A stretch of 64,000 nucleotides of DNA, from contig JAJYAM010000005.1 of the NCBI GenBank assembly GCA_021779535.1, positions 1-64,000 of the forward strand, read 5' to 3'. Under the pieces are notes generated by a model. That model made no database searches, had not been told where the DNA came from, and was given only the letters and a program-made list of their open reading frames with translations. Position 1 is the stretch's first letter. Every line of letters begins with the position of its first letter. Made by a program: the position numbers and the translations under genes. This DNA is from Pseudomonadota bacterium (GTDB lineage Bacteria; Pseudomonadota; Gammaproteobacteria; Steroidobacterales; Steroidobacteraceae). This document shows positions 9,864 through 13,096 of the stretch, in pieces.

Positions 9864-10181
9864 TCAGGTATCCGGGGCGATCGCGACCTTCAAGCCCTCG
9901 AGCGCCTCGGTGAAGTCGACCTGGCAGGACAGCCGCGAGACCTCCGGACGGTAGTCCGACAGCTCGGTCAACAGGTCCTGTTCGTCGCTCTGCTTCTTCG
10001 GCAGGCGGTCGACCCACGCGGGGTCGACGTAGACGTGGCAGCTCGCGCAGGAACACAGTCCCCCGCAGATCGCCGCGACGCCGTAATCCAGTTCCCGCAG
10101 GATCTCCATCAATTTCAAGCCCGGCTTCGCATCGACCACGTGCTCTTTGCCGTCCCGGTCCACCACCGTCATCCGCGTCAT
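9864..10181 (-). CDS. [2Fe-2S] ferredoxin, adrenodoxin/putidaredoxin type
   Basis: Small electron carrier of 105 residues. The cluster ligands follow the vertebrate-type pattern C-x5-C-x2-C (within CGGLCSCASCHVYV) plus the distant Cys in RLSCQV; an additional Cys sits inside the first loop. Acidic residues after the cluster loop fit a redox-partner surface. Such ferredoxins serve P450s, Rieske oxygenases or Fe-S assembly. No isc genes, P450 or ferredoxin reductase lie next to it, so the partner is unknown; the Rieske oxygenase at 46 kb lacks a reductase of its own and is one possible client. Start at 10181 is an ATG; an internal Met three codons on (10172) is possible. Confidence 0.88.
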   Translation of the reverse strand: MTRMTVVDRDGKEHVVDAKPGLKLMEILRELDYGVAAICGGLCSCASCHVYVDPAWVDRLPKKQSDEQDLLTELSDYRPEVSRLSCQVDFTEALEGLKVAIAPDT

Positions 10182-10234: not shown

Positions 10235-11170
10235 CTATTTTGCCTCAACCGGCGCTCGTGCGGCAACGAGCGGCGATTCGAGCCGCGCGATCATCCGCCG
10301 CGCACGCGCACGCGCGTCCGCCGCCTCCGCGTCCCCGGCGCGCCGCAGGAACAGCTCGCTCCACAACACGCCGACGTAGTCGTAGAGCCAGCCGACCGCG
10401 GTGAAGCGCGCCCATTCGCGAGCGCTCGGCGCGCGACCCAGATAGCGTTCGAGCAGGACCGCGCGCGTCGCGTCCGTCCAGTCGTTCGCGCAGCTCCAGC
10501 CGACGACGTCCCAGAACGGATCGCCGACGTGCGCGTACTCCCAGTCGAGCGCGACCAGTCCGGCCGGCGTCTCGATGAGATTCAGCGCGTGCAGGTCGCT
10601 GTGGCACAGCGCCGCCGCGCCCTCGCCGGCCGGTTCGAGCACGCCCAACCGCACCCCGGCCGCGGCGCGCAGCGCGGCGCCGTCGTCGACGAGCGTCACC
10701 GGTCCGCCGAGCGCGCGTTCGTAATGGGCGATCCAGTCGGCGACGCCGATCCGACGGGCGGGCTGCGGCGGCGCGAGCGCGTGGATCGAGCGCATCAGCG
10801 CCGCGACCGCGGCGATGCGCCCGGGGTCGTCGACCGCGACCGCGTCCCAGCAACGCCCCTCGACCCAGCGTGACACGAGGATGCCGGCGGCCGGGTCGGA
10901 GCGTACGACCTCGGGGGCGAGGCCCGCCCCGCCCGCGACCGCGCGGACCGCGTGCTCCCACTGCGGGTCGAAGCCCTCGCCCCGCTCGTCCGTGGGTGCG
11001 AGCCTGAGCGCATACGCGCACCCGGCGCGCTCGGCGCGATAGGTGCGGCTCCCGAGCCCGGTGCCGATTCGTTGCAGCCGCACCGGCCCGCGGCCCGGGA
11101 TGCATTGCCGCGCGATCCGCTCTATCCCGGCGGGCGCCGCCGGCTTCACGCCGGCAGGCTCCGCCGCCAT
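10235..11170 (-). CDS. Aminoglycoside/choline-kinase-fold kinase, predicted thiamine kinase
   Basis: 311-residue small-molecule kinase of the APH/choline kinase fold. The catalytic loop is CHSDLHALNLIE (H-x-D-x4-N) and the metal-binding Asp is in ALDWEYAHVGDPFWD; the lobe order is normal. ThiK (YcfN) of enteric bacteria, which makes thiamine monophosphate, is in this fold. The function call rests mainly on position: third gene behind a TPP riboswitch, after a thiamine-binding-type protein and a PnuC-type transporter. ATG 11170 is chosen because it overlaps the end of the transporter gene by 25 bases and gives a normal N terminus; the frame stays open further upstream only as a shadow of the transporter. 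A choline or homoserine kinase is possible on fold alone. Confidence 0.75.
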   Translation of the reverse strand: MAAEPAGVKPAAPAGIERIARQCIPGRGPVRLQRIGTGLGSRTYRAERAGCAYALRLAPTDERGEGFDPQWEHAVRAVAGGAGLAPEVVRSDPAAGILVSRWVEGRCWDAVAVDDPGRIAAVAALMRSIHALAPPQPARRIGVADWIAHYERALGGPVTLVDDGAALRAAAGVRLGVLEPAGEGAAALCHSDLHALNLIETPAGLVALDWEYAHVGDPFWDVVGWSCANDWTDATRAVLLERYLGRAPSAREWARFTAVGWLYDYVGVLWSELFLRRAGDAEAADARARARRMIARLESPLVAARAPVEAK

Positions 11171-11742
11171 TCGCGGATGCCGAATCCGATCATCACCAGG
11201 TACACGCCGAACAACAGCATCGTCGGGTACAGCTCGCGGCGCCAGTACACGAAGATCGCGACCGAGTCGATCACGAACCACCAATGCCAGTTCTCGTAGA
11301 CCTTCACGGCGACCAGGTAGGTCGCGAACGCGCTCGACCAGGTCACCATCGAGTCGACGAACGGCCACGCGGCCGGCGTGTAGCGGCGCAGGAAATACGC
11401 GCTGCACAGCGCGCACACGACGACGCCGGCAAAGCCGAGCACGTGGCGCCCGATCGGCCAGCGCTGGACCCCGGCGTTCGCCTCGCTCGAGCGGCGCGAC
11501 CACTGCCACCACCCGTACACCGCGATCGCGGCGTAGAACACGTTGAGCACCGACTCCATGTAGAGCCGCGCGTGGAACATCACGATCACGTACAGCGCCG
11601 AGCTGGTAAAAGCGGCGATCCAGCAGCTGCGCCGCTGCCCGATCGCGAGCAGCAGATACAGGATCGCGAGCACCGCCGCGACGATCTCGATCCAGCTCGC
11701 GGTGTGCCAGGCCACCGCGAGCTGGGCAAGGACTTCACGCAT
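11146..11742 (-). CDS. pnuT: PnuC-family vitamin transporter, predicted thiamine uptake (PnuT)
   Basis: 198-residue integral membrane protein of the PnuC/NMN-transporter family, which carries unphosphorylated vitamins by facilitated diffusion and relies on a kinase to trap them. Seven or so hydrophobic helices; family blocks are EIVAAVLAILYLLLA with the following CWIAAFTSSALY, the YGWWQW block, and VYENWHWWFVIDSVAIFVYW. PnuC itself takes nicotinamide riboside, but family members behind TPP riboswitches (PnuT) take thiamine, so the riboswitch upstream makes thiamine the better call. It starts 3 bases after the small YkoF-like gene and overlaps the downstream kinase gene. Confidence 0.85.
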   Translation of the reverse strand: MREVLAQLAVAWHTASWIEIVAAVLAILYLLLAIGQRRSCWIAAFTSSALYVIVMFHARLYMESVLNVFYAAIAVYGWWQWSRRSSEANAGVQRWPIGRHVLGFAGVVVCALCSAYFLRRYTPAAWPFVDSMVTWSSAFATYLVAVKVYENWHWWFVIDSVAIFVYWRRELYPTMLLFGVYLVMIGFGIREWRRSLPA

Positions 11743-11745
11743 CGA

Positions 11746-12012
11746 TCAGGTCGCGGCGGGCGCCGCCGGCGCGGCGAGCTTCGGCAGCACCTTCATCACG
11801 AAGATGAGCTGCGGCCCATCGGCCGCGGCGCGCTCGAATTCCTCGGTGAGCACGGTCATGATGCGTCCGAGGTCGCCCCAGATCTGGGTGCTCAGGTCGT
11901 TGGTGACGACGCGCAGGTCCCGGTGGCGGTTCAATCGCTCGATGAACGCGAGGATTCGGGCGATGTAGTCCTCGCCGAGCGGATACAGGCTGATTTCGAC
12001 GGCTGCTTTCAT
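11746..12012 (-). CDS. YkoF/MTH1187-family thiamine-binding-type protein
   Basis: 88-residue single-domain protein of the thiamine-binding (YkoF/MTH1187/UPF0045-like) ferredoxin-fold family: it begins with EISLYPLGEDYIARI and has the TNDLSTQIWG block. YkoF-type proteins bind thiamine or its HMP half in the cytoplasm. ATG 12012 is preferred to an upstream in-frame GTG (12021) because AGGGAG, 8 bases upstream of the ATG, is the end of the TPP riboswitch and serves as its ribosome binding site. First gene of a three-gene operon with the transporter and the kinase. The C terminus is Ala/Pro-rich. Confidence 0.85.
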   Translation of the reverse strand: MKAAVEISLYPLGEDYIARILAFIERLNRHRDLRVVTNDLSTQIWGDLGRIMTVLTEEFERAAADGPQLIFVMKVLPKLAAPAAPAAT

Positions 12013-12020
12013 TTCGACCA

Positions 12021-12120
12021 CTCCCTACGCCGGTACTAGCCGGATCAGGTTCGACGGGTTCGCCCCGCAGGCCGACGTCGCGACCGCAGGTGCATCTCAG
12101 GCCTCTCGGCCACCCCTTGG
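12021..12120 (-). promoter_or_regulatory. TPP (THI-box) riboswitch controlling the thiamine salvage operon
   Basis: Read on the minus strand the segment has the conserved THI-box parts in order: GGGGTGGCC-GAGA-GGCC (P2), CTGAGATGC (J2/3), a longer variable P3 arm, GAACCTGATC, a P4 hairpin CCGG-CTAGTA-CCGG, and the closing GCGTAGGGAG. The final AGGGAG is also the ribosome binding site of the YkoF-like gene, eight bases before its ATG, so TPP binding most likely blocks translation initiation rather than causing termination; no U-run terminator follows. This is the clearest RNA element in the window. Confidence 0.95.
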
Positions 12121-12196
12121 GCGCGATCAGTGTAGCGGCGCGGCGGCGCCCATGCAAAACTCCCGGCGATCTCACCGGCGCCGGAGGAGGAATCGC

Positions 12197-13096
12197 GTGC
12201 GGATGTTCCATGTCGATGCGTTCACCCTGACCCCGTTCGGCGGGAATCCGGCGACGGTCGTGCTCGATGCCGACGGGCTCGACGACGCGCGAATGCAGGC
12301 GGTCGCGCGCGAGTTCGCCCACGCCGAATGCGCGTTCGTGCGCCCTCCGGGTTCACCGGACGAGGACGTCGCGATCCGCTTCTTCAGCACGCGCCAGGAG
12401 GCGCCCTTCGTCGGCCATGCGACCCTCGCGGCACACGCGGTGTTGCTCGCGACCGGCCGCCGCGCACTCGGAATCGCGCGGCAGCGCTGCGGGATCGGGA
12501 TCGTCGACGTCGACGTGCGCCGCGACGCGCGGACGAGCGACGCGGCGCCGCTGATCGAGTTTCGACGGGCCGCGCCCCGGCTCGAGGCACCGCTCCCGCT
12601 GAAGACGGCACTGCGGGTCGCCGAGACCCTGGGACTCCCGGGGGAGCGCCTGCACGAAGCGCTGCCGGCGCGCGCGTGCCGCGACGGCGGCGCGAGACTG
12701 CTGATCCCGCTCGCGGACGCGGACGCGCTCGAGCAACTCGCCCCGCGGACCGAACCGCTGCTCGCACTGGGGCGCGAGTTCGGGGTCGACGGGTTCTTCC
12801 CGTTCGCGTTCCGGCGCGGTCCCGACGGCGCGGTGACCGAGTCGCGCATGTTCTGTCCGGCGATCGGCATCCCCGAGGACCCGGTCAGCGGCAACGCGCA
12901 CGCGATGCTCGCGAGCTATCTCCTCGAGGCGGCGCTGCTGGATCCGGCCGATCGCGGTTTCGTCGGCCTGCAGGGCGCGCACCTCGGTCGCCCGGGGCGC
13001 GTCGAGGTCGGCTGGGATCTGCAGGGCGGCCGGCCGGCCGCGGTGCGCATCGGCGGGCACGCGGTGATCATCGGCGAGGGCACGCTCGCGGTGTGA
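12197..13096 (+). CDS. PhzF-family isomerase/epimerase-like protein
   Basis: 299-residue member of the phenazine biosynthesis PhzF fold, a duplicated diaminopimelate-epimerase-like structure. Seen: MFHVDAFTLTPFGGNPATVV at the N terminus, the conserved catalytic Glu in AHAECAFV, the FVGHATLAAHAV motif and EDPVSGNAHAML. GTG 12197 is chosen because GGAGGAGG lies six bases upstream; an earlier ATG (12152) would add an arginine-rich tail lacking any family match. Most PhzF-family proteins are not phenazine enzymes and their substrates are unknown; no phz genes are nearby. It stands alone between the riboswitch operon (divergent) and a strong convergent terminator. Confidence 0.88.
   Translation: MRMFHVDAFTLTPFGGNPATVVLDADGLDDARMQAVAREFAHAECAFVRPPGSPDEDVAIRFFSTRQEAPFVGHATLAAHAVLLATGRRALGIARQRCGIGIVDVDVRRDARTSDAAPLIEFRRAAPRLEAPLPLKTALRVAETLGLPGERLHEALPARACRDGGARLLIPLADADALEQLAPRTEPLLALGREFGVDGFFPFAFRRGPDGAVTESRMFCPAIGIPEDPVSGNAHAMLASYLLEAALLDPADRGFVGLQGAHLGRPGRVEVGWDLQGGRPAAVRIGGHAVIIGEGTLAV

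Follow-up and report, generated by a model that had tools for sequence, protein, structure and literature searches.

This locus raises the question of whether three genes placed directly behind a TPP riboswitch serve the uptake and trapping of thiamine, and how their expression is controlled. The first-pass annotation had proposed a thiamine salvage operon of the bind-import-phosphorylate type behind a canonical THI-box. Within the window, i.e., the whole 64-kb stretch of DNA analysed here, the TPP riboswitch was the sole Rfam match at the gathering threshold. Its match to RF00059 exceeded the gathering score of 54.3 bits and spanned the full model (1-105), in agreement with the claimed THI-box; binding of TPP and an effect on expression are predicted from its sequence. 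The following features were located:

12004..12127, minus strand: TPP riboswitch aptamer (THI element), full length (RF00059, 63.1 bits, E 5e-10)
12021..12025, minus strand: Shine-Dalgarno-like GGGAG within the aptamer 3' strand, 8 nt before the YkoF ATG (from the sequence)
11746..12012, minus strand: single-domain YkoF-like protein with a thiamine-binding fold, 88 aa, ATG start (Pfam Ykof, AlphaFold2 model)
11146..11742, minus strand: PnuC-family permease, predicted PnuT-type thiamine transporter, 198 aa (PF04973)
10235..11149, minus strand: kinase of the choline/thiamine-kinase fold, predicted thiamine kinase, 304 aa, GTG start (PF01636)

On the minus strand the riboswitch is followed by the YkoF-like gene without a gap. 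Three nucleotides separate the YkoF stop from the PnuC start, and the kinase start shares 4 nt (GTGA) with the PnuC stop, which makes co-translation of the operon genes very likely. At the same junctions of the nearest relatives, the genes overlap by 4 to 20 nt or lie 0 to 23 nt apart, with starts picked by script. GTG 11149 was read from the sequence as the best kinase start. For the YkoF-like protein, a GTG start at 12021 was rejected because it overlaps the GGGAG itself, and ATG 12012 with its 8-nt distance was preferred. All three proteins gave Pfam matches, in line with their earlier assignment as YkoF-like, PnuC-type and APH-fold, and the PnuC coordinates were identical to those given before (11146-11742). 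The range originally assigned to the operon (10235-12120) covers all three genes and falls short only by the initial 7 nt of the aptamer. To describe it as complete goes too far for this locus by itself, as the outer-membrane receptor and thiL described below lie on other contigs.

Some 50 nt beyond the end of the kinase gene follows a 2Fe-2S ferredoxin-like gene of the same orientation (window 9864-10181, minus strand), which may be co-transcribed with the operon. Thirteen of the 14 nearest relatives, and locus L024, have this gene at the same place; the contig of the 14th relative (L009) ends inside the kinase. A PhzF-family isomerase gene (window 12197-13096, plus strand) is divergent from the operon and adjoins it in 13 of the 14 nearest relatives.

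With 31.9 bits the YkoF-like protein exceeded the cut-off of the Pfam family Ykof (PF07615, 21 bits), and with 21.7 bits it stayed just under that of Thiamine_BP (24.9 bits). Among 67 aligned members, 52 matched Thiamine_BP and 46 matched Ykof at E 0.001. Its AlphaFold2 model (pLDDT 90.9) was nearest in fold to the structures of MJ1052, SP2199 and TM0486, and also matched B. subtilis YkoF (1s7h, 1s99 and the thiamin complex 1sbr). TM-scores by query of these model matches were 0.66-0.76, and comparison of the model with 1vk8 gave Z 12.2 and an rmsd of 2.9 over 86 residues. The 1s7h chain of B. subtilis YkoF has 200 residues, two stretches of which aligned to the YkoF-like protein; at 88 aa, the latter has one domain and no tandem two-domain arrangement. 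It is probably a cytoplasmic thiamine binder with a role in buffering or hand-over.

The permease matched PF04973 with 152.1 bits over profile positions 1-175, which places it in the PnuC family by fold and length, and was the only match to this family in the genome. It passed the nicotinamide-riboside PnuC model TIGR01528 (75.2 bits, cut-off 42.45), but far below the 248.8 bits of E. coli PnuC. As this cut-off is passed, automatic annotation would mislabel the permease. Its surroundings are those of PnuT, i.e., TPP-riboswitch control and linkage to a receptor and a kinase, and from this context we infer that it transports thiamine. The kinase belongs to the APH family (PF01636, 47.4 bits). 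On the ThiK equivalog TIGR02721 it reached 62.7 bits (cut-off 299.45), and on the GntI model it scored higher, with 96.9 bits, and failed that cut-off (357) as well; E. coli ThiK, used as control, gave 338.1 and 33.2 bits, respectively. Equivalence to ThiK by family model was therefore rejected, and the curated family models single out neither kinase nor permease as thiamine-specific. All 68 aligned kinases matched both the GntI and the ThiK model at E 0.001, and H183, D185, N190, D202, W203 and E204 were invariant in 68/68. Both catalytic motifs typical of the APH/choline-kinase superfamily, HxDxxxxN and DWE, are present, and the solved structures nearest to the kinase model (pLDDT 91.9) were choline/ethanolamine kinases.

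The substrate was approached through the thiamine pathway of the window genome (2.93 Mb, 98.97% complete, 0.09% contaminated). Family searches gave no match in this genome for ThiC, ThiG, ThiE and thiamine pyrophosphokinase (TPK), and every pathway family search gave matches in control genomes. TPK (TIGR01378) had no match in any of the 22 genomes searched. ThiP matches stayed below the cut-off in all 22 (best in the window genome 42.7 versus 395.1 bits) and were taken as other ABC permeases. ThiL was found with 316.7 bits (cut-off 184.15) on another contig, next to a gene whose features suggest nusB. Across the window genome and its 14 nearest relatives, ThiC was absent from 14 of 15; only G013 possesses it, and G013 alone has ThiG and ThiE over the cut-off, with sub-cut-off matches for ThiG in G007 and for ThiE in G012. 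ThiL exceeded the cut-off in 13 of these 15 genomes, with weak matches only in G002 and G011. By its gene content the organism, a gammaproteobacterium, appears unable to make thiamine, i.e., to be a thiamine auxotroph. With ThiL present and TPK absent, thiamine must first become the monophosphate, so that a thiamine kinase is needed. Adding the absence of thiC, thiG and thiE and of any thiP over the cut-off, thiamine would have to be imported and then phosphorylated once before ThiL. The operon kinase was the only candidate seen for making thiamine monophosphate, and in this context it is predicted to be a thiamine kinase with thiamine monophosphate as its product.

A search of the genome collection for relatives of the permease yielded 142 loci; the best 80 were kept and their gene order scored by tblastn. 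A TPP riboswitch over the Rfam threshold, upstream and on the same strand, was found in 65 of these best 80 of 142 loci (by batch 12/15, 12/15, 14/15, 12/14, 11/15 and 4/6). The order riboswitch-receptor-YkoF-transporter-kinase was observed in 44 of the 80, and riboswitch-YkoF-transporter-kinase with the receptor missing in 11. All partners but a detected riboswitch were present in 5 loci. Three loci had riboswitch, receptor and YkoF with the kinase undetected, one had just the riboswitch and the receptor, and one just YkoF and the kinase; the kinase was the sole partner in 2 loci and YkoF in another 2. None of the partners was found in 5 of the best 80 (L036, L070 and L081-L083). Some absences are contig ends (L016, L024, L042 and L044, the last stopping about 550 bases past the permease), and the kinase tally by tblastn misses L059, L068 and L077, where a diverged kinase-like ORF was seen by eye after the permease. 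Other riboswitches in the loci were unrelated (cobalamin in L049, c-di-GMP in L071).

In 6 of the best 80 of 142 loci (L037, L039, L049, L052, L056 and L087), riboswitch, receptor, permease and kinase were present and YkoF was undetected; YkoF thus seems dispensable in some lineages. The permease homologues without any partner include those of Pseudoalteromonas (L070, L081, L082 and L083), which may be nicotinamide-riboside or other PnuC-type transporters.

The outer-membrane step was found elsewhere in the genome. The window genome contains two TPP riboswitches, and the second (67.6 bits), on a different contig, lies directly before a TonB-dependent receptor of 716 aa (Plug domain 47.7 bits) that is 34-44% identical to the receptors within joined operons. 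A receptor homologue directly followed the non-operon riboswitch in the window genome and all 14 nearest relatives (15/15; in G003 the contig stops shortly after the start of the gene). Besides the window genome, 12 of the 14 relatives have the operon riboswitch, which in the genome of L016 is located on another contig beside a partial permease. Of the close relatives, L012 has neither riboswitch nor YkoF, with the permease as first gene (region L012:4860-5040), and L019 has YkoF with no riboswitch detected before it (region L019:4630-4800). In the clade of the window one unit is split in two, with a TPP riboswitch on each half. Since in L024 the receptor adjoins YkoF and the downstream ferredoxin and phosphoglycerate-mutase-like neighbours are common with the window, the joined operon at the chromosomal site of the window was probably ancestral.

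Taken together, we consider it highly probable that the locus is a TPP-repressed thiamine-salvage operon of a thiamine auxotroph. Bind-import-phosphorylate salvage of thiamine, as proposed at first, remains the best reading, with ThiC, ThiG, ThiE and TPK absent, ThiL present, the riboswitch in 65 of the best 80 of 142 loci and the receptor in most of them. When TPP is scarce, the aptamer would be unliganded, the Shine-Dalgarno sequence in its 3' strand free and YkoF translated, and the overlapping transporter and kinase would follow by translational coupling. The TonB-dependent receptor, from the second locus with its own TPP riboswitch, would carry thiamine across the outer membrane, and the PnuC-family permease would let it cross the inner membrane, presumably by facilitated diffusion. 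The kinase would trap thiamine by conversion to thiamine monophosphate, from which the chromosomal ThiL would make TPP, and TPP would close the switch.

Two other readings of the substrate were weighed against thiamine. An ordinary nicotinamide-riboside PnuC and a choline/ethanolamine-type kinase could be chance neighbours of a TPP riboswitch, a grouping that would fit the TIGR01528 result of the permease and the choline/ethanolamine kinases nearest in structure to the kinase. However, the same grouping with a TPP riboswitch and a receptor is seen again in most of the best 80 of 142 loci, far beyond chance, and with TPK not found in the window genome a thiamine kinase is needed. Moreover, the NadR-family search found no user of nicotinamide riboside in the window genome: its best match (28.5 bits, cut-off 27) reads as a thymidylate kinase, judged from its sequence, its neighbours and the features of that family, whereas the relative G003 gave a clear match of 117.5 bits. 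A chance grouping is therefore very improbable. It is just as improbable that a precursor or a breakdown product of thiamine, e.g., HMP, is what the operon salvages and the YkoF protein binds in place of thiamine. B. subtilis YkoF is indeed termed a thiamin/HMP-binding protein in the title of Devedjiev 2004, as it stands in the reference list of PMC9026889, but in a genome with neither ThiE nor ThiG the pyrimidine alone cannot yield thiamine phosphate.

For thiamine salvage by this operon, the mode of control also allows two readings. The first-pass annotation had let the riboswitch end in the ribosome binding site of the first gene and called control probably translational, and both points gained support. 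Each of the 12 operon leaders shown (that of the window plus 11 from relatives) has GGGAG in the aptamer 3' strand and the start codon 8-17 nt later; in the receptor leaders (10 shown of 15 known) the start lies within about 7 nt, often inside the P1 region. No terminator-like site was found on the minus strand between 9700 and 12500, the single site in this region belonging to the plus strand and being discounted. When folded freely, the leader pairs much of the Shine-Dalgarno region; as such folding is ligand-blind, it was not used as evidence. With the Shine-Dalgarno sequence inside the aptamer and no minus-strand terminator found, control is likely translational, the aptamer itself directly occluding the ribosome-binding site. 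Salvage as proposed could instead be combined with transcriptional control, Rho-dependent or other, the Shine-Dalgarno overlap being incidental. Predicted riboswitch modes are often wrong, and a P. aeruginosa thiC switch, predicted translational, was transcriptional when tested (PMC12632268). Yet no terminator-like site was found on the minus strand between 9700 and 12500, and a start 8-17 nt past GGGAG in 12/12 operon leaders leaves no room for a separate platform, so that we regard transcriptional control as unlikely.

Beyond translational control of thiamine salvage, one could tentatively imagine an import-and-trap complex in which the YkoF-like carrier takes thiamine from the permease to the co-translated kinase, the latter representing a separate thiamine-kinase lineage missed by the curated models. 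We consider this possible, though doubtful. Neither a complex of a YkoF-like carrier with PnuC-family permeases nor the gene order of the window was found described in the literature searched. We regard the system as a good representative of an established type, not as a new type. Beyond the first reading, the analysis points to auxotrophy, brings in the argument from ThiL and TPK, shows that the arrangement is widely conserved and places the outer-membrane half at a second locus; it also cautions that two of the three genes would be mislabelled if curated models were used alone. A full, testable route of vitamin B1 acquisition is thereby proposed for a lineage whose 14 nearest relatives are metagenome assemblies only. 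With standard models the permease would be annotated as a nicotinamide-riboside transporter and the kinase overlooked, which could give a wrong picture of B1 dependence in related genomes.

Compared to known systems, a YkoF-fold thiamine-binding domain is common to the window protein and B. subtilis YkoF, with one domain in the former and two in the latter. The partner in the window is a PnuC-family permease, whereas B. subtilis ykoEDC of the ykoFEDC operon encodes an ECF-type transporter. The kinase and E. coli ThiK belong to the same superfamily with the HxDxxxxN and DWEYA motifs, as read from the sequences, but differ in their TIGR02721 scores (62.7 versus 338.1 bits) and in their place, since thiK sits between lpoB and nagZ outside any transport operon. 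For the window kinase we propose the same ThiK-then-ThiL route that is described for E. coli (PMC4112796). TonB-dependent transporters have been predicted for thiamin by co-localisation with PnuT, an assignment from context (PMC2771747). There the receptor is next to pnuT and the passages seen describe neither YkoF nor kinase, whereas the window operon has both and its receptor is on another contig.

The closest parallel is OMthi with pnuT-tnr3 of B. thetaiotaomicron (PMC5613172). The slot of the kinase is taken there by Tnr3, termed a thiamine pyrophosphorylase; the operon of the window contains no Bacteroidetes-type pyrophosphokinase, and its kinase has the APH (choline/thiamine-kinase) fold, with a separate ThiL and TPK not found in the genome. 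A mention of a YkoF protein was not found in that paper, while one is present here, and B. thetaiotaomicron makes thiamine, which the window organism seems not to do. Common to both are a TonB-dependent receptor under TPP-riboswitch control, a PnuT permease and a kinase. Common as well is the history of the operon, since in gut Bacteroidetes it is, by the same source, single in most relatives and split in others with TPP riboswitches retained or duplicated. The one operon split in two of the window, with a TPP riboswitch on each half, parallels this arrangement and offers a useful case for the copying of a regulator at operon breakup.
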